From NCBI GenBank assembly GCA_027006055.1, contig JALTKX010000264.1, positions 1 to 35,090 of the forward strand: DNA of 35,090 nucleotides, written 5' to 3'. This DNA comes from Calditrichia bacterium (GTDB lineage Bacteria; Calditrichota; Calditrichia; Calditrichales; J004). Below are positions 166 to 35,090 of the stretch, piece by piece (within the stretch, counting starts at the first letter, position 1; every line of letters starts with the position of its first letter). The translations under genes and the position numbers were made by a program. Under the pieces are notes generated by a model. The model made no database searches and was not told where the DNA came from. It saw only the letters and a program-made list of their open reading frames with translations.

Positions 166-305
166 ATGAAACACGGCCGGGTATTGAAATATTCGCAGAT
201 AATTTTAAAATCGGCAGGCTTACAGAGACCTTTTCCGGTGGTAAACACGGTTTTTTTCTAATACCAATGGATCAAAATCACCGTTATGCGCCTTAGGCTT
301 CGCAT

Positions 306-320
306 TAAAGGGCGGCTTTA
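306..320. repeat. Short perfect hairpin (REP-like candidate)
   Basis: TAAAG at 306–310 and CTTTA at 316–320 are inverted repeats around a GGCGG loop. The hairpin overlaps the stop codon of the leftward sensor gene and lies close to the transposase fragment. It could be a REP-like target or a weak structure at the mRNA 3' end. No U tract follows on either strand, so it is not a convincing terminator. Confidence 0.3.
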
Positions 321-2060
321 GTCTTTTTCGGAGAGCGGTTTCCCCACCAGTTTTATCACCAGATTTTTCAAGTCCGGCAGCGGAAAGGGCTTGGAAAGGA
401 AAGCGTCGGCCATGCGTACCGTATCTTCCAGTTCCTCTTCCACCTCATAGCCGGTCATAAAAACAAAGCTGCCCTTATAGCCGCTTTCCTTAATCTTTTT
501 AAAAAGCTCGGTACCCGGCATCTCCGGCATATCCACATCGGAGATGATCAGCGAGTAGCTTTGATTGCCGATAAAATCCAGCGCCTGGGGACCGCTGGAG
601 GCGCCGTCGCACTCGTATCCGGAAAGATGCAGTACCTCTATCAGCGAGTCGAGCAATTCGGGTTCGTCATCAATAATAAGGATGCGTTGCTGTTTGCTTT
701 TTTCCAGCGCTTCTTCCGAAGAGGCGCGGATATTGATGATTTTGGTGGAGAGGTAATCCTGCTGACGCAGGGCGGTGATGCTTTTAAGGTTATCCACCAG
801 TTCCACGATGCGCTGAATGCTGCGCTGCGCTTTTACAAAGTACTCTGAATCGGCTACCTGCTGTTCCAAAATAGACATGCTGATGGTCAGCACCTGCAGC
901 GGTTGAGAAAATTCGTGGGCAATGCCCCCGGCCAGTTCCTGCACGCTCTTCAGCGTTTCCGCTTTTTGCCGCGCCTTTTCTTCCTTGCGTTTCTGGATGT
1001 CTTCTATACGGATGGAAACAAAAAATTTTATATCGCCCTTTTTGTCCCTCACAGGGGAAATGACCTGTTTCTCCCAATACAGACGACCATCCTTCATTTT
1101 ATTGCAAATCTGTCCCCGCCAGGTTTCTCCCGAGGTTATCGTATCCCACATCTCCTTATAAAACTGGGGCTTATGGGCATTGGACTTCAGGATGCGCGGG
1201 GTTTTGCCCAAAACATCCTCTTCCTTGTGGCCGGTACATTTGGAAAACTGCTCATTGATATAAATGATCGTGCCGTACTGGTCGGTTATCAGTATGGGCA
1301 GGGGACTCAGATGGATAACATGGCGGAAGGTCAGCAGCTCATCCTCCAGACGGCGCAGCTCGCGGGTATCGCGCAGGGTCAGCGTAATGCACAGCTCGTC
1401 TTCCCAGATCAGTTCATTGGTTACGATCTCCACGGTGCGGTTTTTACCGGTTAACGCCCGCAGGTCAAATTCCAGAATCTCCCCCGCCTGCACATCCAGG
1501 GGAAAGCGCTGACCGACGAATTTCTGCGGAATGCCAAACAACTCCTGACAGGCGGGGTTGATATAGCGTATCAAACCGTCGCGGTTGAGCACGATGGTCG
1601 CCTCGGTTTTGGAACGGAACACGCCGATAAAACGCTTTTCGCTTTCATGGAACTTGCGCTTCAGATAGCCCGCCTGTATGCGCAAACGATAATCCGCCTC
1701 GATTTTGGGCAGTAAAAGGGTCAGTTCAAAGGCATTCAGGCTTTTTTTATGCAGCCAATAAGGCGGCCGGAGTTCCGTCATGCGCGAGGCGTTGCCGTCG
1801 TCATAAAGCAATATATAGGGCAGTTCCAAAAGCTTAATTTCCCGGAAACGCTCGCCGATACCCGCATCATCCAAATCGCCCAGGTCCAACAAATACACGG
1901 GGATGGATTTGCTATCGGCAGGCCGGCTGACTTTGCTCTTCGGAGATACAATCCGGCCCGAAACGCTAAAGTGCTCAATTTGGGAGCATATATCGATAAA
2001 TTTTATAAAGGCCGACTCCCGTGAGGTCAGATAGGCCAGATCAAATTGAATTTCACTCAT
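318..2060 (-). CDS. Multi-PAS hybrid sensor protein with DHp helix and receiver but no ATPase domain
   Basis: 580 aa and soluble, with no membrane segment. Domains in order: an N-terminal receiver-like region (about 1–125, with Y-L-L-D-L and L-H-K-K where the phospho-acceptor and lysine strands would be); PAS 1 (about 140–245); PAS 2 (about 250–370, with the common 'GKTPRILKS…YKEMW' core); a HisKA-type dimerisation helix with A-G-G-I-A-H-E-F around His382; and a C-terminal REC domain with Asp508 in I-S-D-V-D-M-P-E-M-P-G and a conserved S-K-P. Only about 60 residues separate the His helix from REC. No N, G1, F or G2 boxes of a HATPase are present, so the protein cannot autophosphorylate as it stands. 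It probably receives phosphate from, or is sensed by, another kinase such as the complete one at 25527–27515; that partner is inference. It is transcribed away from the aldolase gene. Confidence 0.85.
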   Translation of the reverse strand: MSEIQFDLAYLTSRESAFIKFIDICSQIEHFSVSGRIVSPKSKVSRPADSKSIPVYLLDLGDLDDAGIGERFREIKLLELPYILLYDDGNASRMTELRPPYWLHKKSLNAFELTLLLPKIEADYRLRIQAGYLKRKFHESEKRFIGVFRSKTEATIVLNRDGLIRYINPACQELFGIPQKFVGQRFPLDVQAGEILEFDLRALTGKNRTVEIVTNELIWEDELCITLTLRDTRELRRLEDELLTFRHVIHLSPLPILITDQYGTIIYINEQFSKCTGHKEEDVLGKTPRILKSNAHKPQFYKEMWDTITSGETWRGQICNKMKDGRLYWEKQVISPVRDKKGDIKFFVSIRIEDIQKRKEEKARQKAETLKSVQELAGGIAHEFSQPLQVLTISMSILEQQVADSEYFVKAQRSIQRIVELVDNLKSITALRQQDYLSTKIINIRASSEEALEKSKQQRILIIDDEPELLDSLIEVLHLSGYECDGASSGPQALDFIGNQSYSLIISDVDMPEMPGTELFKKIKESGYKGSFVFMTGYEVEEELEDTVRMADAFLSKPFPLPDLKNLVIKLVGKPLSEKD

Positions 2061-2350
2061 TACATTTCTTTGTTAATCAAGATTTAGGTATTCGGCGTTA
2101 CAGACCAAAGTTTACCCATTAAGAGCAAAAAAACCGGCCTGTTAATGTAGATTTTGCTTCCATTGACGAAGAATAATGCCATGCAAAAAGTAACAATCAT
2201 ACGGGTATAAAGACTCAGGCCATTCCACCCGGAACCTGATGCGCATATAAAACAAAAACTTTCCCGGGGAATAAAACATCTTTTTCGTTTTATGGCGCTA
2301 TTGTTTAAATTCAACCATTCATTCAACCGATGCTGATTAAGGAGGCATAA

Positions 2351-3409
2351 ATGAGTTCACTAAAAAAAATCGAGGAACTTCTCGGCGCGGAAGCCGGGAA
2401 CTTACTTAACCACACATGCAATACCATCCCCCGGGAGCAGCTCCATCTGCCCGGCCCGGATTTCGTGGATCGCGTTTTTGCCGATTCCGATCGCAGCCCG
2501 CAGGTGCTGCGCAGCCTGCAAATGCTGTTTGAACACGGTCGTCTGGGGAACAGCGGCTACCTTTCCATCCTGCCGGTGGATCAGGGCATCGAACATACCG
2601 CCGGGGCATCCTTTGCCCCCAACCCGGCTTACTTCGACCCGGAGAATATCGTAAAGCTGGCCATCGAGGGCGGCTGTAACGGCGTGGCTTCCACCCTGGG
2701 CGTGCTGGGCGCCGTCAGCCGTAAATATGCGCACAAAATTCCCTTCATCGTCAAAATCAATCATAACGAGCTGCTCACCTATCCCAATAAATACGATCAG
2801 ATCATGTTCAGCAGCGTGCAACAGGCCTGGGACATGGGCGCCGTGGCCGTGGGCGCCACCATCTACTTCGGCTCGCCCGAATCCAACAGGCAAATTATTG
2901 AAGTGAGCGAGGCCTTTGAACTGGCCCATGACCTGGGCATGGCCACCATCCTGTGGTGCTACCTGCGTAATCCCGCCTTTAAAAAAGATGGCGTGGACTA
3001 TCACGTGGCCGCCGACCTGACCGGCCAGGCCAACCATCTGGGCGTAACCATCAAGGCCGATATCGTCAAGCAAAAACAACCGGAAAACAACGGCGGCTTT
3101 AAGGCCATCAACTTTGCCAAGACCCATGACAAGGTCTACTCGCAACTCTCTTCCGACCATCCGATTGATCTTACCCGTTATCAGGTGGCCAATTCCTACA
3201 TGGGCCGCGCCGGTCTGATCAACTCCGGCGGCGCCTCCGGCGAGAATGACCTGGCCCAGGCCGTGAAAACCGCGATCATCAATAAACGGGCCGGGGGCAT
3301 GGGACTGATCAGCGGCCGCAAGGCTTTCCAAAAACCGATGGATCAGGGCGTTGAGCTGCTTAATGCCATTCAGGACATTTACCTGGATAAGGATGTTACC
3401 ATCGCCTAA
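2351..3409 (+). CDS. fbaB: Fructose-bisphosphate aldolase class I (FbaB/DhnA family)
   Basis: 352 aa, the normal length for this family. It cleaves fructose 1,6-bisphosphate to DHAP and glyceraldehyde 3-phosphate (or the reverse) through a lysine Schiff base, in cytosolic glycolysis/gluconeogenesis. The sequence follows Escherichia coli FbaB closely along its whole length as I recall it: [13 protein letters not shown], the [13 protein letters not shown] strand, [18 protein letters not shown], and the C-terminal [12 protein letters not shown] and [12 protein letters not shown]. Lys240 in A-D-I-V-K-Q-K aligns with the E. coli Schiff-base lysine. The start has an excellent AGGAGG ribosome-binding site (gattAAGGAGGcataaATG). 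It is monocistronic, with a strong terminator directly after it. Confidence 0.95.
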
Positions 3410-30406: not shown

Positions 30407-33013
30407 ATGCAATCCAATGAAATCCGCCGGCAATTCATAGATTTCTTCCGCGAAAAGCAACACACTTTTGTCAAAAGCGCCTCCGTGGTGCCGCTGGACG
30501 ACCCCACCCTGCTTTTTACCAACGCCGGGATGAACCAGTTTAAGGACATCTTTCTGGGCAAGGGCGAGCGCAGCTACACCCGCGCGGTCAACTCGCAAAA
30601 ATGTATTCGCGTCAGCGGAAAGCACAACGACCTGGAGGAGGTGGGCCACGACACCTATCACCACACTTTTTTCGAGATGCTGGGCAACTGGTCCTTTGGC
30701 GATTACTATAAAAAGGAAGCCATCGCCTGGGCCTGGGAACTGCTGACGGAGGTGTGGAAGCTGCCCAAGGAACGCCTTTATGCCACCGTGTTTGGCGGAG
30801 ATGAAGCCGACGGACTGGAAGCCGACGTTGAAGCAGAAACTCTCTGGAAGGAGGTTACGGACATCGACCCCGGCCATGTGCTGCGTTTTGGCAAGGCGGA
30901 TAACTTTTGGGAGATGGGCGCCAGCGGCCCCTGCGGCCCCTGCTCGGAAATCCATATCGACCTGACGCCCGATCTGAGCGGCGGGAAGCTGGTTAACGCC
31001 GGCGTGCCGGAGGTGATCGAAATCTGGAACCTGGTCTTTATTCAATATAACCGCGATACGCAGGGCACGTTGTCTCCCCTGCCCGCCCGCCATGTGGATA
31101 CCGGCGCCGGGTTTGAGCGCATTGTGGCCGTGTTGCAAAACAAATCTTCCAACTACGATACCGATGTATTTGCCCCCTTGCTCAAGGCCATCGGCGATAT
31201 GACCGGCGTGCCCTATGAAAAAAGTCCCGAACAGATCGCCTACCGGGTGATTGCCGATCATGTGCGCATGCTCGGCTTTTCCATTGCCGACGGCGGCATG
31301 CCCTCCAACGAGGGGCGCGGTTATGTGATGCGCCGCATCCTGCGCCGGGCCGCCCGATACGGCCGCAAGCTCAATTTTTCCAAACCCTTTTTATATAAGC
31401 TGATACCCGTGCTGGCCGAACAGATGGGTGACGCCTATCCCGAGGTGCGGGAGCGCCAGGATCATATCGTTAAAATCATTAAAACGGAAGAGGAGCAGTT
31501 TAACCGCACGCTGGATCGCGGCCTGGATATTTTTGCCAGGGTCGAGGCCGACCTGAGGGAACGGGGCGAAACAACCGTGCCCGGCAGCGAGGTGTTTAAA
31601 CTGTACGATACCTACGGTTTTCCGGTGGATCTTACCCGCGTCATCGCCGGGGAGAAGGGGCTGGAGATCGATATGCCCGGCTTTGAAAAGGCCATGGCCG
31701 AACAACGGGAACGGGCCCGCGCCTCGGCAAAATTCAATGCCGAGCAGGTGCAAAGCGATGAGTGGGTAACCCTGAGCGAGGGCGCGGACTCAAAATTCAT
31801 CGGCTATGAGACCACCGAAGCGGATACGGAAATAAGCCGCTACCTTGTTACCGGAGAGGCCATTCTGGTGCGCCTGAAGGAGACGCCCTTTTATGCCGAG
31901 TCCGGCGGACAGGTGGGCGATACGGGCCTGATACGCGGGAAGGATTTTGAACTGCGGGTCACCGATACCCAAAAGCAGGGCGAGGCGATTATCCACCACT
32001 GCGCCCCCGTTGACGGTTTTAAGCCGGCCTCCGCCGCCGTACACGCGCGGGTGCGGGATGACGCCCGGCGGCGCACCATAAAAAACCATACGGCCACCCA
32101 TCTTTTGCAGGCCGCCCTGCAACAGGTTTTGGGCGACCATGTGCATCAGGCCGGATCGTTGGTGGAACCGGATCGCCTGCGTTTTGACTTTACCCATTTT
32201 GAAAAGATCGACGACCAGCAACTACGCCGCGTTGAGGAGATTGTCAACCGCGAGATACAGAAAAACACGCCGCTGCAAATCAGCCTTAAAAAGTTTGACG
32301 AGGCCAAAAAGGAAGGGGCCATGGCCCTGTTTGGCGAAAAATACGGCGACGTGGTACGCACGGTGCGGGTGGGCGATTTCAGCTACGAACTGTGCGGCGG
32401 CACCCATGTACGGGCCACGGGCGAGATCGGTCTGTTCCTGATCACCCAGGAGAGCAGCATCGCCTCCGGAGTGCGGCGCATAGAAGGGGTTACCGGTCCG
32501 GCCGCCCTGGAACTGGTACGGCAAACGCGTGCCGCCCTGCAGAGCAGCGCCCAGTTGCTTAACACAGGCCTGGCGGAGGTACCGGCAAAAATCGAGGGCC
32601 TTTTGGAAGAGAAGCGCCGCCTGGAACGGGCGCTGAAGGAAAGCCGGGCCCAACAAATGCTCTCCGGACTGGAGGATATTATAAAGAGCGCCGTGCGCAA
32701 GAACGGCGTCTCCCTTATCGTGCATACCCTTAAGGATGTGGAGATGAACGCCCTGAAGGATCTGGGTGACCGTCTGCGGCAAAAGGCACCGGAAAGCGTG
32801 GGACTGGTCGCCGCCGCCAACGGCGACAAGCTGGCGTTTATGGTTTTTGTGGGTGATCAACTGCTGGACAAGTACAAGGCGGGCGACCTGGTGCGTGAGG
32901 TGGCCAAAGCCGCCGGCGGCGGTGGCGGCGGAAGGCCGCACCTGGCCACGGCCGGCGCCAGGGATGTGGCTAAAATGGACGAGGCCCTTAAGCGCTTCCG
33001 CGAGTTGATTTAA
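30407..33013 (+). CDS. alaS: Alanyl-tRNA synthetase
   Basis: 868 aa, full length. The class II catalytic core starts with the characteristic I-R-R-Q-F-I-D-F-F and contains P-L-D-D-P-T-L-L-F-T-N-A-G-M-N-Q-F-K and motif 2 around K-C-I-R-V-S-G-K-H-N-D-L-E-E-V-G. The tRNA-recognition helices follow. The editing domain has the zinc ligands His561/His565 (N-H-T-A-T-H-L-L-Q) and Cys663/His667 (C-G-G-T-H). The C-terminal DHHA1-type domain ends in G-G-G-G-G-G-R-P-H-L-A-T-A-G. The start follows GTGAGGATTTAA. A terminator lies 26 bp after the stop. Confidence 0.98.
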   Translation: MQSNEIRRQFIDFFREKQHTFVKSASVVPLDDPTLLFTNAGMNQFKDIFLGKGERSYTRAVNSQKCIRVSGKHNDLEEVGHDTYHHTFFEMLGNWSFGDYYKKEAIAWAWELLTEVWKLPKERLYATVFGGDEADGLEADVEAETLWKEVTDIDPGHVLRFGKADNFWEMGASGPCGPCSEIHIDLTPDLSGGKLVNAGVPEVIEIWNLVFIQYNRDTQGTLSPLPARHVDTGAGFERIVAVLQNKSSNYDTDVFAPLLKAIGDMTGVPYEKSPEQIAYRVIADHVRMLGFSIADGGMPSNEGRGYVMRRILRRAARYGRKLNFSKPFLYKLIPVLAEQMGDAYPEVRERQDHIVKIIKTEEEQFNRTLDRGLDIFARVEADLRERGETTVPGSEVFKLYDTYGFPVDLTRVIAGEKGLEIDMPGFEKAMAEQRERARASAKFNAEQVQSDEWVTLSEGADSKFIGYETTEADTEISRYLVTGEAILVRLKETPFYAESGGQVGDTGLIRGKDFELRVTDTQKQGEAIIHHCAPVDGFKPASAAVHARVRDDARRRTIKNHTATHLLQAALQQVLGDHVHQAGSLVEPDRLRFDFTHFEKIDDQQLRRVEEIVNREIQKNTPLQISLKKFDEAKKEGAMALFGEKYGDVVRTVRVGDFSYELCGGTHVRATGEIGLFLITQESSIASGVRRIEGVTGPAALELVRQTRAALQSSAQLLNTGLAEVPAKIEGLLEEKRRLERALKESRAQQMLSGLEDIIKSAVRKNGVSLIVHTLKDVEMNALKDLGDRLRQKAPESVGLVAAANGDKLAFMVFVGDQLLDKYKAGDLVREVAKAAGGGGGGRPHLATAGARDVAKMDEALKRFRELI

Positions 33014-33071: not shown

Positions 33072-33207
33072 CGCCTCCCTCCGCTCCCCCTTCCGAACGT
33101 AGGCAAATAAACTTTGAAGCTTTTTGGCCCTGCATTATATTGTAATAAAGGCCGGGAATATCCCGTAACATGGTCATTCCCGGGATAAACGAAACTACAA
33201 AGGATAT

Positions 33208-33259
33208 ATCCGCGCTAAACCCGCCTGCCTCGGGCACGGCGAAATACGTTTAGCGGGAT
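33208..33259. repeat. Inverted repeat at the entry of the cassette-like region (attC/attI-like candidate)
   Basis: Left arm ATCCGCGCTAAAC (33208–33220) and right arm GTTTAGCGGGAT (33248–33259) are complementary except for one extra base in the left arm. They enclose 27 bp. Single extrahelical bases of this kind are a hallmark of folded attC sites, and GCTAAAC/GTTTAGC resembles the R''/R' core boxes. The total of 52 bp is at or below the lower end of attC sizes, and GTTTAGC departs from the GTTRRRY consensus at one position, so an attI-like or unrelated inverted repeat is possible. The next gene's ATG lies inside the right arm. Confidence 0.5.
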
Positions 33260-33986
33260 GTTAGCAATAATACAAACACATAGAGAGAAATTGAACCACC
33301 GATTTTATAATAAAAGTAAAAGGGATCAAAATAGAATCTTAATCCTTATTGCGTCTTTTTCTTTTTTATTGATATTATTATCAATTCTTTTATCAATCTA
33401 TTTGGGAATATATTTGCTTGGAATTCTGACATTAGTAATAACCGTATCTATAATTGCCCCATTCTTTGATGTACCTAATTTAAAAAAAAGAGGGAGAATT
33501 ATATATTATTCATCTTTATTTATTGCTGAAAAACCTAAAAATGGGCTAATCAAAATTCATGGAGGAACTTTATTTGATTACTATTTCGTAATTGAAAAAG
33601 GAATGAATGGAAAGCAAAGAACTGATTTCATAATCCAACAGTATTTAGAAGGGTTATTGAACTTAATTGAAGCAAATAGCATCGATAAGAATATAAAAAT
33701 CCGAGGTACGAGTTACATAATAAATACAAGAACCGCGGAAAAAATCGGCTTTGAAACAGGCAAAACTGATATTTTGCAGAAAATAATATTATGCTTTAAT
33801 TACTTCAATATTTTAATTTCAAATTCAATAGCTAAAAATAAATTATCATTCCCGAATTTGAACAAAACAAAAACATTTGAAACTGATATCGGCAAATTAC
33901 TTGAAAGAAAAAAATATATTGAGAAATTAAATGATTCGATAAAAAGTACTATTGCTAACAAAAAATATAGTGCATTTGGCAGATAG
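33258..33986 (+). CDS. Hypothetical protein with two membrane helices (cassette 1)
   Basis: 242 aa, family not recognised. A basic N terminus (about 1–26) is followed by a long hydrophobic region at about 27–67 that fits two transmembrane helices. The remaining ~170 residues are a soluble, Lys/Ile-rich domain with no motif I can name; it contains I-K-I-H-G-G-T-L-F-D-Y-Y-F-V-I-E and I-R-G-T-S-Y-I-I-N-T-R-T. The ATG overlaps the inverted repeat at 33248–33259 and no Shine–Dalgarno is evident. Translation stops at 33984–33986, one base before the next repeat box. Such tight packing between repeat sites, and a base composition far more AT-rich than alaS, indicates acquired DNA. Confidence 0.7.
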   Translation: MLAIIQTHREKLNHRFYNKSKRDQNRILILIASFSFLLILLSILLSIYLGIYLLGILTLVITVSIIAPFFDVPNLKKRGRIIYYSSLFIAEKPKNGLIKIHGGTLFDYYFVIEKGMNGKQRTDFIIQQYLEGLLNLIEANSIDKNIKIRGTSYIINTRTAEKIGFETGKTDILQKIILCFNYFNILISNSIAKNKLSFPNLNKTKTFETDIGKLLERKKYIEKLNDSIKSTIANKKYSAFGR

Positions 33987-34083
33987 TGCTAAACCCAAAG
34001 ATGAAAGCAATAAATAAGCATAGTGTAAATCCGAAAATTTGGAGCGTTGAAATGCCAAACGCACCATATTTAAACCGTTGGGC
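33986..34083 (+). repeat. attC-like cassette junction 1 (98 bp)
   Basis: It runs from GTGCTAAAC (33986–33994), directly at the stop of the preceding gene, to GTTGGGC (34077–34083), a perfect GTTRRRY core box. GCTAAAC here is the exact complement of GTTTAGC at 33248–33254, as expected if the same circular cassette once joined these two ends. Inside are small palindromes (GCGTT/AACGC at about 34044–34062). The right end, CATAT…AAACCGTTGGGCA, recurs at the next junction. Confidence 0.55.
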
Positions 34084-34157
34084 ATCATGCTAAAGAAAAC
34101 CTGTTGAAAAATAAAAATATCAGATTAAGTTGTCTTATTGGGCTACTTTTTATATCT

Positions 34158-34503
34158 TTGTTCCATGACAAAAAACGAGAACTGTATTTTTTTAAGGACT
34201 ACTTTAAAAAATTTTATGACAGTCAGACTAAAAAAGTCCAGAAGAAAATACTATGGACATTAAGAATAATAGAAGAAATAGACAGAATACCTGAAGTGTA
34301 CATGAAACATTTGAAAAATACTCCAGGACTTTATGAAATTAGAATTCAGGTTGGTAATAACATTTACAGGATTTTCTGTTTTTTTCATTGACAATCTCGT
34401 AATAATCGGACATGGTTTTCAGAAAAAAAGCCAAAAAACTCCGAAACAAGAAATAGAACGGGCGGAACAAATAAAAAAAGAATACTATGAAAGCAAAGAA
34501 TAA
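34158..34503 (+). pseudogene. higB: HigB-type (Gp49-like) toxin, frameshifted
   Basis: The first frame gives K-K-R-E-L-Y-F-F-K-D-Y-F, K-V-Q-K-K-I-L-W-T-L, and T-P-G-L-Y-E-I-R-I-Q-V-G-N-N-I-Y-R-I-F-C-F-F, then stops at 34389–34391. In the next frame the expected C terminus follows at once: I-D-N-L-V-I-I-G-H-G-F-Q-K-K-S-Q-K-T-P-K-Q-E-I, ending at 34503. Together they make a normal ~115-residue RelE/HigB-superfamily mRNA interferase of the Gp49-like group. The break falls in a run of seven T (34379–34385); six would restore the frame. The 5' end is also unclear: a TTG at 34158 is in frame, while the ATG at 34165 would need a further one-base change near 34189. It overlaps the antitoxin gene by 17 bp. 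Either a decayed toxin or a homopolymer sequencing error. Confidence 0.8.
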
Positions 34504-34795
34504 AAATTTAAAAAGTCTTGACCAATTTATTGACGAAAAAATTGGCAAAAAAGGAACAGATAAAAGAGAACGGTTTGAAGCAGAATATGACGCCTTTAAA
34601 CTTGGCGTTCTGATCCAACAGGCACGTGAAGAAAAAGGACTCACTCAAGAACAATTAGCCAAATTGGCGGGAACAAATAAATCTTACATTTCAAAATTAG
34701 AACGAAATCTAAAAGACATTCGATTTTCAACACTACAGAGAATAATCAATAATGGATTGGGTGGACATCTTGAAATATCAATTAAACTTAAGTAA
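34487..34795 (+). CDS. higA: HigA-type antitoxin, XRE-family helix-turn-helix protein
   Basis: 102 aa. The C-terminal half is a Cro/CI-type HTH (about 38–95): L-I-Q-Q-A-R-E-E-K-G-L-T-Q-E-Q-L-A-K-L-A-G and N-K-S-Y-I-S-K-L-E-R-N. The N-terminal region (F-I-D-E-K-I-G-K-K-G-T) is typical of antitoxins paired with Gp49-like toxins, which come second in the operon as here. It should neutralise the toxin and repress the promoter. Its ATG lies inside the toxin's C-terminal codons, so translation is coupled. The frame is intact, unlike the toxin. Confidence 0.9.
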   Translation: MKAKNKNLKSLDQFIDEKIGKKGTDKRERFEAEYDAFKLGVLIQQAREEKGLTQEQLAKLAGTNKSYISKLERNLKDIRFSTLQRIINNGLGGHLEISIKLK

Positions 34796-34845
34796 AAAGA
34801 AAAAGCACGAAAGCACAACAATGTATCTGGTTTATGGCGAGTGAC

Positions 34846-34945
34846 GTGCTAAATATGAGCGACTTAACAATAAGTAAAAATTGATGTAACTTGAAAGATT
34901 TGTGTTTCAAATACCGCCACAAAACCATATACTGAACCGTTGGGC
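34846..34945 (+). repeat. attC-like cassette junction 2 (100 bp)
   Basis: It runs from GTGCTAAAT (34846–34854) to GTTGGGC (34939–34945), the same layout and nearly the same length as the junction at 33986–34083. Shared blocks are TGCTAAA at the left and CATAT…GAACCGTTGGGCA(C/T)CAT at the right. A second candidate left core box, ACTTAAC (34862–34868), fits RYYYAAC exactly. The centre holds TTGAAA/TTTCAA arms. It starts 50 bp after the antitoxin stop. Confidence 0.55.
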
Positions 34946-34970
34946 ACCATTAACATAAATTGTGCATAAA

Positions 34971-35090
34971 ATGACTAAAAGAGATTTTTTCAGAGTAATA
35001 ATTAAACTTTTTGGTTTGTATTGGATTATTTCTACAATATTCTCCGTAATACCTGGGAATATTGCATTCGCCTTATCTGATTTTGGAGTT
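34971..35090 (+). CDS. Small hydrophobic protein, 5' part (cassette 3)
   Basis: An ATG 26 bp after the GTTGGGC box opens a frame that runs off the right edge: 40 residues are visible, starting M-T-K-R-D-F-F-R-V-I-I-K-L-F-G-L-Y. The hydrophobic stretch after the basic start is probably a membrane helix. I recall similar 'KRDFF…IKLFGLY' openings in small uncharacterised proteins of Bacteroidota-type accessory DNA but cannot name a family. No strong ribosome-binding site is visible. Confidence 0.5.
   Translation, partial: MTKRDFFRVIIKLFGLYWIISTIFSVIPGNIAFALSDFGV

Follow-up and report, generated by a model that had tools for sequence, protein, structure and literature searches.

Integrase-less arrays of integron cassettes (CALINs) consist of at least two attC-bounded cassettes with no intI beside them (PMC9024848, PMC9668308), and they are described as mobilizable by IntI acting in trans (PMC9024848, PMC9668308, PMC12444791). 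Sequenced genomes contain CALINs and complete integrons in about equal numbers (PMC9024848), and the nature of CALINs is unsettled, with degraded integrons, off-target insertions, and live reservoirs all under consideration. The attI site, in turn, is said to lie directly next to intI (PMC9668308). In Xanthomonas, CALINs occupy conserved loci away from the integrase locus (PMC12444791), and IntI recombination outside the canonical attI is reported at attG sites and at delta-attI-type cassettes (PMC12444791, PMC12901181). For the Calditrichota, the literature searched, in which subscription papers are thinly covered, contains only a table entry, a CALIN in Caldithrix abyssi (PMC10295459); within the same coverage we found no multiple or second attI sites. 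CALINs as such are thus already known; a common integrase-free head at several loci was not found described.

Here we analysed a 35,090-bp stretch of DNA from a Calditrichia bacterium (the window), which is the entire contig C264 of the source MAG, G000 (298 contigs, 85.9% complete), so that the array beyond its right end is out of reach. We compared it with the congeneric G001, G002, and G003 and with G005 of another genus, and extended the search for the head described below to 40 relatives; all of these genomes are fragmented MAGs, and contig ends interrupt most arrays. Upstream of the array lies a core gene, alaS (alanine--tRNA ligase, 30407-33013, plus strand; TIGR00344, 959 bits, above the cut-off). 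Conserved non-coding sequence comes next, and from 33261 onward the genes are AT-rich and lie on the same strand. Mean G+C is 0.29 after position 33262 versus 0.52 for 1-33207. The G+C counts in an earlier sequence-only reading of this DNA (12/60 and 47/60) are exact, as are its coordinates for four boxes, GTTTAGC at 33248-33254, GCTAAAC at 33988-33994, and GTTGGGC at 34077 and 34939; its pairing of these boxes fared less well, as set out below.

Integron cassettes fill positions 33261-35090, all on the plus strand: two are complete, and a third is cut off after its beginning by the contig end. Cassette C1 (33261-34077) carries an ORF at 33258-33986 that encodes 242 aa without a Pfam family; its protein has a relative with 35% identity in G005, and a solved-structure search gave no match. 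Cassette C2 (34078-34939) codes for a HigB/Gp49-type toxin (34104-34391 and 34333-34503) and an HTH antitoxin (34487-34795), with Pfam families Gp49 and HTH_3, respectively. The antitoxin gene is intact, and the toxin frame is broken into two ORFs, each corresponding to half of Gp49; the frame is intact in relative L010, to which the C2 cassette is 97% identical, and the break could reflect either decay or an assembly error. Cassette C3 (34940-35090) begins with a membrane-protein ORF from 34971 that is cut by the contig end and is complete in L010, at 164 aa. Besides the toxin-antitoxin pair, cassettes in the arrays of these genomes carry genes for dynamin-like, PIN, and glycoside-hydrolase proteins and a three-gene ABC-3C system. 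The ABC-3C system (CTD12, MC8, DUF2326) occupies a single cassette of ~3 kb on the minus strand of contig C154 of G000 (~263-3177).

Within the 35-kb window, AACCGTTGGGCAYCAT occurs only at 34073 and 34935. The related pattern AACCGTTRGGC has four matches elsewhere in the genome, all in or beside ordinary coding sequence with no signs of an array, and this context ruled them out as further arrays. The attC site of C1 spans 33953-34083, with the bottom strand active: R'' is TGCTAAC at 33953-33959, L'' lies at ~33965-33981, L' at ~34053-34069, and R' at 34077-34083, and the R'' box and its flank together read as the reverse complement of the cassette start, GTTAGCAATA. The attC of C2, likewise active on the bottom strand, spans 34813-34945, with R'' GCACAAC at 34813-34819, L'' at ~34824-34839, L' at ~34915-34931, and R' at 34939-34945. 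With R'' redrawn, the sites are therefore 131 and 133 bp long, replacing the 98 and 100 bp proposed initially. Bottom-strand folding of the junctions as first drawn (33986-34083 and 34846-34945) gives no signal (z -0.99 and +0.20), and the arms with the corrected R'' boxes fold with z -4.1 and -2.8. Nor are GCTAAAC at 33988 and GTTTAGC at 33248 the two ends of one circle, the complementary pair being R'' at 33953-33959 and a cassette start at G33260^T33261. The attC family had looked diverged because the boxes were mispaired; redrawn, it is not obviously so.

At its expected register the C1 attC forms 21 of 21 pairs, versus 7-10 at shifted registers. The C2 attC forms only 10 of 21 pairs at the fixed register, because its arms are offset by 1-2 bases, and it folds once an arm offset is permitted. 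In an alignment of seven sites from the genus, 81.4% of the stem cells are paired, versus 36.6-46.2% when the arms are slid, and double-change cells number 30, versus 12.9 in shuffles (0/500 as high). Two stem positions hold mostly T-G wobbles on the bottom strand, which correspond to A-C mismatches on the top, and bottom-strand folding is thereby favoured. The sites thus have the bottom-strand R''-L''-L'-R' hairpin with AAC and GTT boxes that characterizes attC. A covariance model, a check of the kind that the sequence-only reading had proposed, matched a site at the end of a contig of the source genome not used in building it (E 2.8e-6); it gives the C2 attC, itself in the training set, 36.8 bits. 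The genome-wide model search was insensitive, with 150 candidates scored per genome and sites known from their loci missed, so a lack of matches there means little. Rfam gave no match, nor did a pattern scan of viral contigs. At three of 11 candidate junctions (C32 8194, G001 1450, and that of C2 in the G001 cytochrome-c array) the arms fold no better than shuffles, and at a fourth, the AT-rich C32 6281, 19 of 21 positions pair with a stability not above shuffles. A de novo hairpin scan was discarded as stand-alone evidence, AT-rich DNA yielding too many chance matches. A lone attC (3131-3247) lies at the end of the 3.3-kb contig C222 of G000. After it come non-coding blocks that are repeated and a convergently oriented gene whose product has a sorting-type domain at its C terminus; one of the G000 arrays probably ends here on its right side.

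Comparison with sister genomes sets the left edge of C1 at G33260^T33261, and C1 therefore starts with GTTAGCAATAATAC, a 93% complement of which is found at 33946-33960. Such complementarity, the signature of a cassette circle, recurs: R'' complements the first bases of its own cassette in nine cassettes, at 10 of 10 positions in four, and in 20,000 permutations among cassettes none reaches the observed sum. The cassettes are also present as independent units in different arrays. In G001, C2 and C3 sit directly behind the same head as in the window, but after a cytochrome-c gene, and in G003 it is C3 that comes first behind the alaS head. Over C2 and C3, the window array and the G001 cytochrome-c array are 97.6% identical, whereas the flanks are 85.8% (alaS) and 78.5% (cytochrome c) identical; the cassettes have therefore travelled from site to site and across species independently of the backbone. 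The orders head-C3-C4, head-C2-C3-C4, and head-C1-C2-C3 form a nested series that covers two loci. Joint movement of the genes in related genomes, which would have spoken against a cassette array, was not what we saw, the cassettes moving independently in the sister genomes.

With two attC sites and no neighbouring intI in the array as seen up to the contig end, the window array is almost certainly a CALIN; it lacks the adjacent intI of a complete integron. Covarying stems, the model match, and independently moving cassettes thus bear out the earlier suggestion of an integrase-less attC cluster beside alaS. The same observations weigh against a non-integron origin, as chance repeats or an AT-rich genomic island with repeated intergenic sequences. 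Pairwise hairpin searches in AT-rich DNA do give many chance matches, but this origin is contradicted by the register controls, the covariation, the independent model match, and the circle complementarity, and we give it next to no credence.

The conserved stretch between alaS and C1 contains an element of ~160 bp (33101-33262, plus strand), here called the head, that is conserved up to GATGTT and could be a multi-copy platform resembling attI with its promoter, Pc. The sequence-only reading had put the left edge at GTTTAGC 33248; the edge is in fact this conserved multi-copy head, which is not visible from the window alone, and the recombination point is G33260^T33261 (GTTAGCA). Every head copy is conserved to TTTAGC-NN-GATGTT (CTTAGC in one) and exactly so to the GTT at 33260-33262, the G^TT insertion point and C1 start, beyond which the sequences are unrelated. 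A predicted promoter, TTTGAA-N17-TATATT (33113-33141), identified by consensus match, points toward the array, and its hexamers are present in all six type-A heads (those at alaS and cytochrome c). Downstream of it, at 33152-33183, the presumed transcript leader contains a hairpin, CCGGGAAT/ATTCCCGG, in the same place in six of six type-A heads; its folding z is -1.5 in the window and -3.4 and -4.0 in two other copies, and it is significant against shuffles in two of the six. In the G003 alaS head a different sequence, which also folds, takes its place. The boxes GCTAAAC (33214-33220) and GTTTAGC (33248-33254) form a palindrome (z -3.25) and are found with few changes in all head copies; the inner palindrome between them is optional, being absent in two copies. 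This inner part, CCGCCTGCCTCGGGCACGG (33221-33239), recurs in further genomes of the order as short, dispersed copies, which resemble a small repeat element placed between the boxes. Changes in the box palindrome are uncompensated, unlike those in the attC sites, so that a double-stranded protein-binding site is predicted as likelier than a single-stranded hairpin. Type-B heads, at gcvT, have only the last ~60-80 bp in common with type A and carry their own TATATT. A few open frames, including that of C1, begin at the ATG of GATGTT, and the head may therefore supply a start codon.

A second head in the source genome (contig C154), behind a cytochrome-c gene, is 91% identical to that in the window, and a shorter relative lies behind a gcvT-like gene (contig C108). 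Searching the 40 relatives with the head core pattern returned these three sites in G000 (alaS, cytochrome c, and gcvT), the orthologous three in G003, and alaS, cytochrome-c, and gcvT-fragment sites in G001, and one gcvT site on a contig assigned to G016; G002, of the same genus, has no head by this search, and the reversed-pattern control gave zero matches. Flanks of 2-3 kb establish the orthology of the loci, with identities of 95.5 and 85.8% at alaS, 96.0 and 78.5% at cytochrome c, and 90.7 and 80.8% at gcvT. The first cassettes nonetheless differ: at alaS they are the 242-aa gene, C3, and a third sequence; at cytochrome c, the three-gene ABC-3C system, the toxin-antitoxin pair, and another gene; and at gcvT, GH114 and dynamin-like genes. 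As judged from these alignments, the comparison establishes the heads as fixed points behind which cassettes exchange at G^TT.

Several further observations concern the surroundings of these loci. The G016 contig (C32), binned in another family, shares a 1.9-kb overlap of 99.6% identity with contig C61 of G001; it probably belongs to G001 and was misbinned, and we dropped the idea that it extends the heads to a second family and to the wider order. Joined, C32 and C61 give a long array at gcvT that has three heads, and duplicated 3' fragments of gcvT precede two of these. Where the gcvT array ends on the right, a segment of 263 bp around the start of the following dus-like gene is 99.2% identical between contig C108 of G000 and C61 of G001, and the gcvT sides of the same arrays are much more diverged; either the right flank was exchanged recently or a contig is chimeric. 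On the 3' side of alaS, G002 has neither head nor cassettes, and its YceI neighbour was abandoned as a marker for the right edge of the alaS array, the gene lying in another context in G000, G001, and G003. In G005 the genes after alaS (contig C173, 835-3249) are also of cassette type, namely TMEM175-like and DUF4287-like genes (by eye), the C1 relative, and a relative of a C32 cassette protein, with no attC found by the model; the 3' side of alaS may be an older hotspot.

Set against the described systems, the window array shares the integrase-less organization of other CALINs but starts at a conserved head with a predicted promoter, which recurs at several orthologous loci. Like the Xanthomonas CALINs it lies at a conserved place away from an integrase locus, although the available portion of that report mentions no common head (PMC12444791), and here one head is found at three unrelated loci. 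The head resembles the attI/Pc region of sedentary chromosomal integrons in its predicted promoter, its fixed G^TT, and its variable cassettes on one side, and differs from it in having no adjacent intI, several copies per genome, and a conserved palindrome before the insertion point. Reported attG insertions are scattered across many loci, and delta-attI sites are part of unusual cassettes (PMC12444791, PMC12901181), whereas here a conserved element precedes the array; an attG site would be a short consensus, whereas ~60-165 bp of the head are conserved across loci and genomes.

Where the integrase might be encoded differs between the genomes. There is no intI beside the array on C264, where alaS occupies the head side, and none was found in G000 (85.9% complete), whose sole PF00589 match, encoded near topA, is XerC/D-like and, by eye, lacks the additional domain of IntI. 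In G003 (95% complete) there is no IntI match at E 1e-30 or better. IntI is common across the order, and in G001 a gene for a full IntI, accompanied by its own attC, lies next to a tryptophanase-like gene, a fourth locus; this is the only full congeneric integrase, and its attI region is unlike the head, both by eye and by motif search. In G002 the IntI at this locus is truncated, and neither G000 nor G003 yielded the tryptophanase-like gene. On contig C154 of G002 (~200-340), an attC-like cassette end is joined straight to the interior of an intI whose 5' part is missing; a cassette may have inserted off target into the integrase gene itself.

The reading we favour, with a probability of about 0.66, is that the window contains the head-proximal end of an integrase-less cassette array on dispersed attI/Pc-like heads served in trans. 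An integron integrase would excise and insert cassettes through single-stranded attC hairpins; the IntI working in trans on all heads would be encoded elsewhere, as in G001, or come from outside; and attC circles would enter at the head, next to the Pc-like promoter. Each reused head would then fill the role of attI plus Pc, with a G^TT insertion point and a predicted promoter into the newest cassette, and without intI. On this inferred scheme IntI would recognize the heads, the cassettes would be expressed from the head promoter, and each new cassette would join the array on its head side; that the heads act like attI is probable. The nested series of cassette orders fits insertion beside the head, and since it covers two loci, arrays may also, or instead, have been transferred by recombination between heads. 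As no IntI was found in G000 and G003, the heads may be inactive there now, and the lack of likeness between the head and the attI region in G001 also counts against this reading. A fuller scheme, in which one integrase in trans, sometimes borrowed from outside, loads several vertically inherited heads in parallel, each integrase-free, at a fixed chromosomal position, and with its own promoter, is put forward tentatively, at somewhat less than even odds.

These heads might instead be inert leftovers of degraded CALINs, an ancestral array having been copied together with its leading segment to three loci by duplication or homologous recombination, and the cassette differences having arisen by between-array recombination and cassette loss. 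Such copying is plausible in that the gcvT 3' fragments duplicated along with heads in the long array indicate that head duplication occurs, and head-to-head identity would permit homologous exchange; that two of the three head-bearing MAGs have no IntI match also fits. First cassettes that differ exactly from GTT at every orthologous site are, however, unexpected of homologous recombination, and the circle signature of C1 is near-perfect beside the head; we consider decay of this kind unlikely, if still a serious contender. Far less probable is that the head is the end of an ORF-less promoter cassette with the GCTAAAC/GTTTAGC hairpin as its attC. The palindrome does precede GTT, but its changes are uncompensated where an attC-like end would show compensatory ones, GTT lies outside the stem, type-A heads have no conserved AAC to pair with it (alignment by eye), and the head stays at fixed chromosomal sites.

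If the preferred reading of attI/Pc-like heads served in trans is true, some CALINs would be active satellites of an integrase encoded elsewhere, with a head sequence that can be searched for, and several cassettes per genome could occupy the expressed first position simultaneously.
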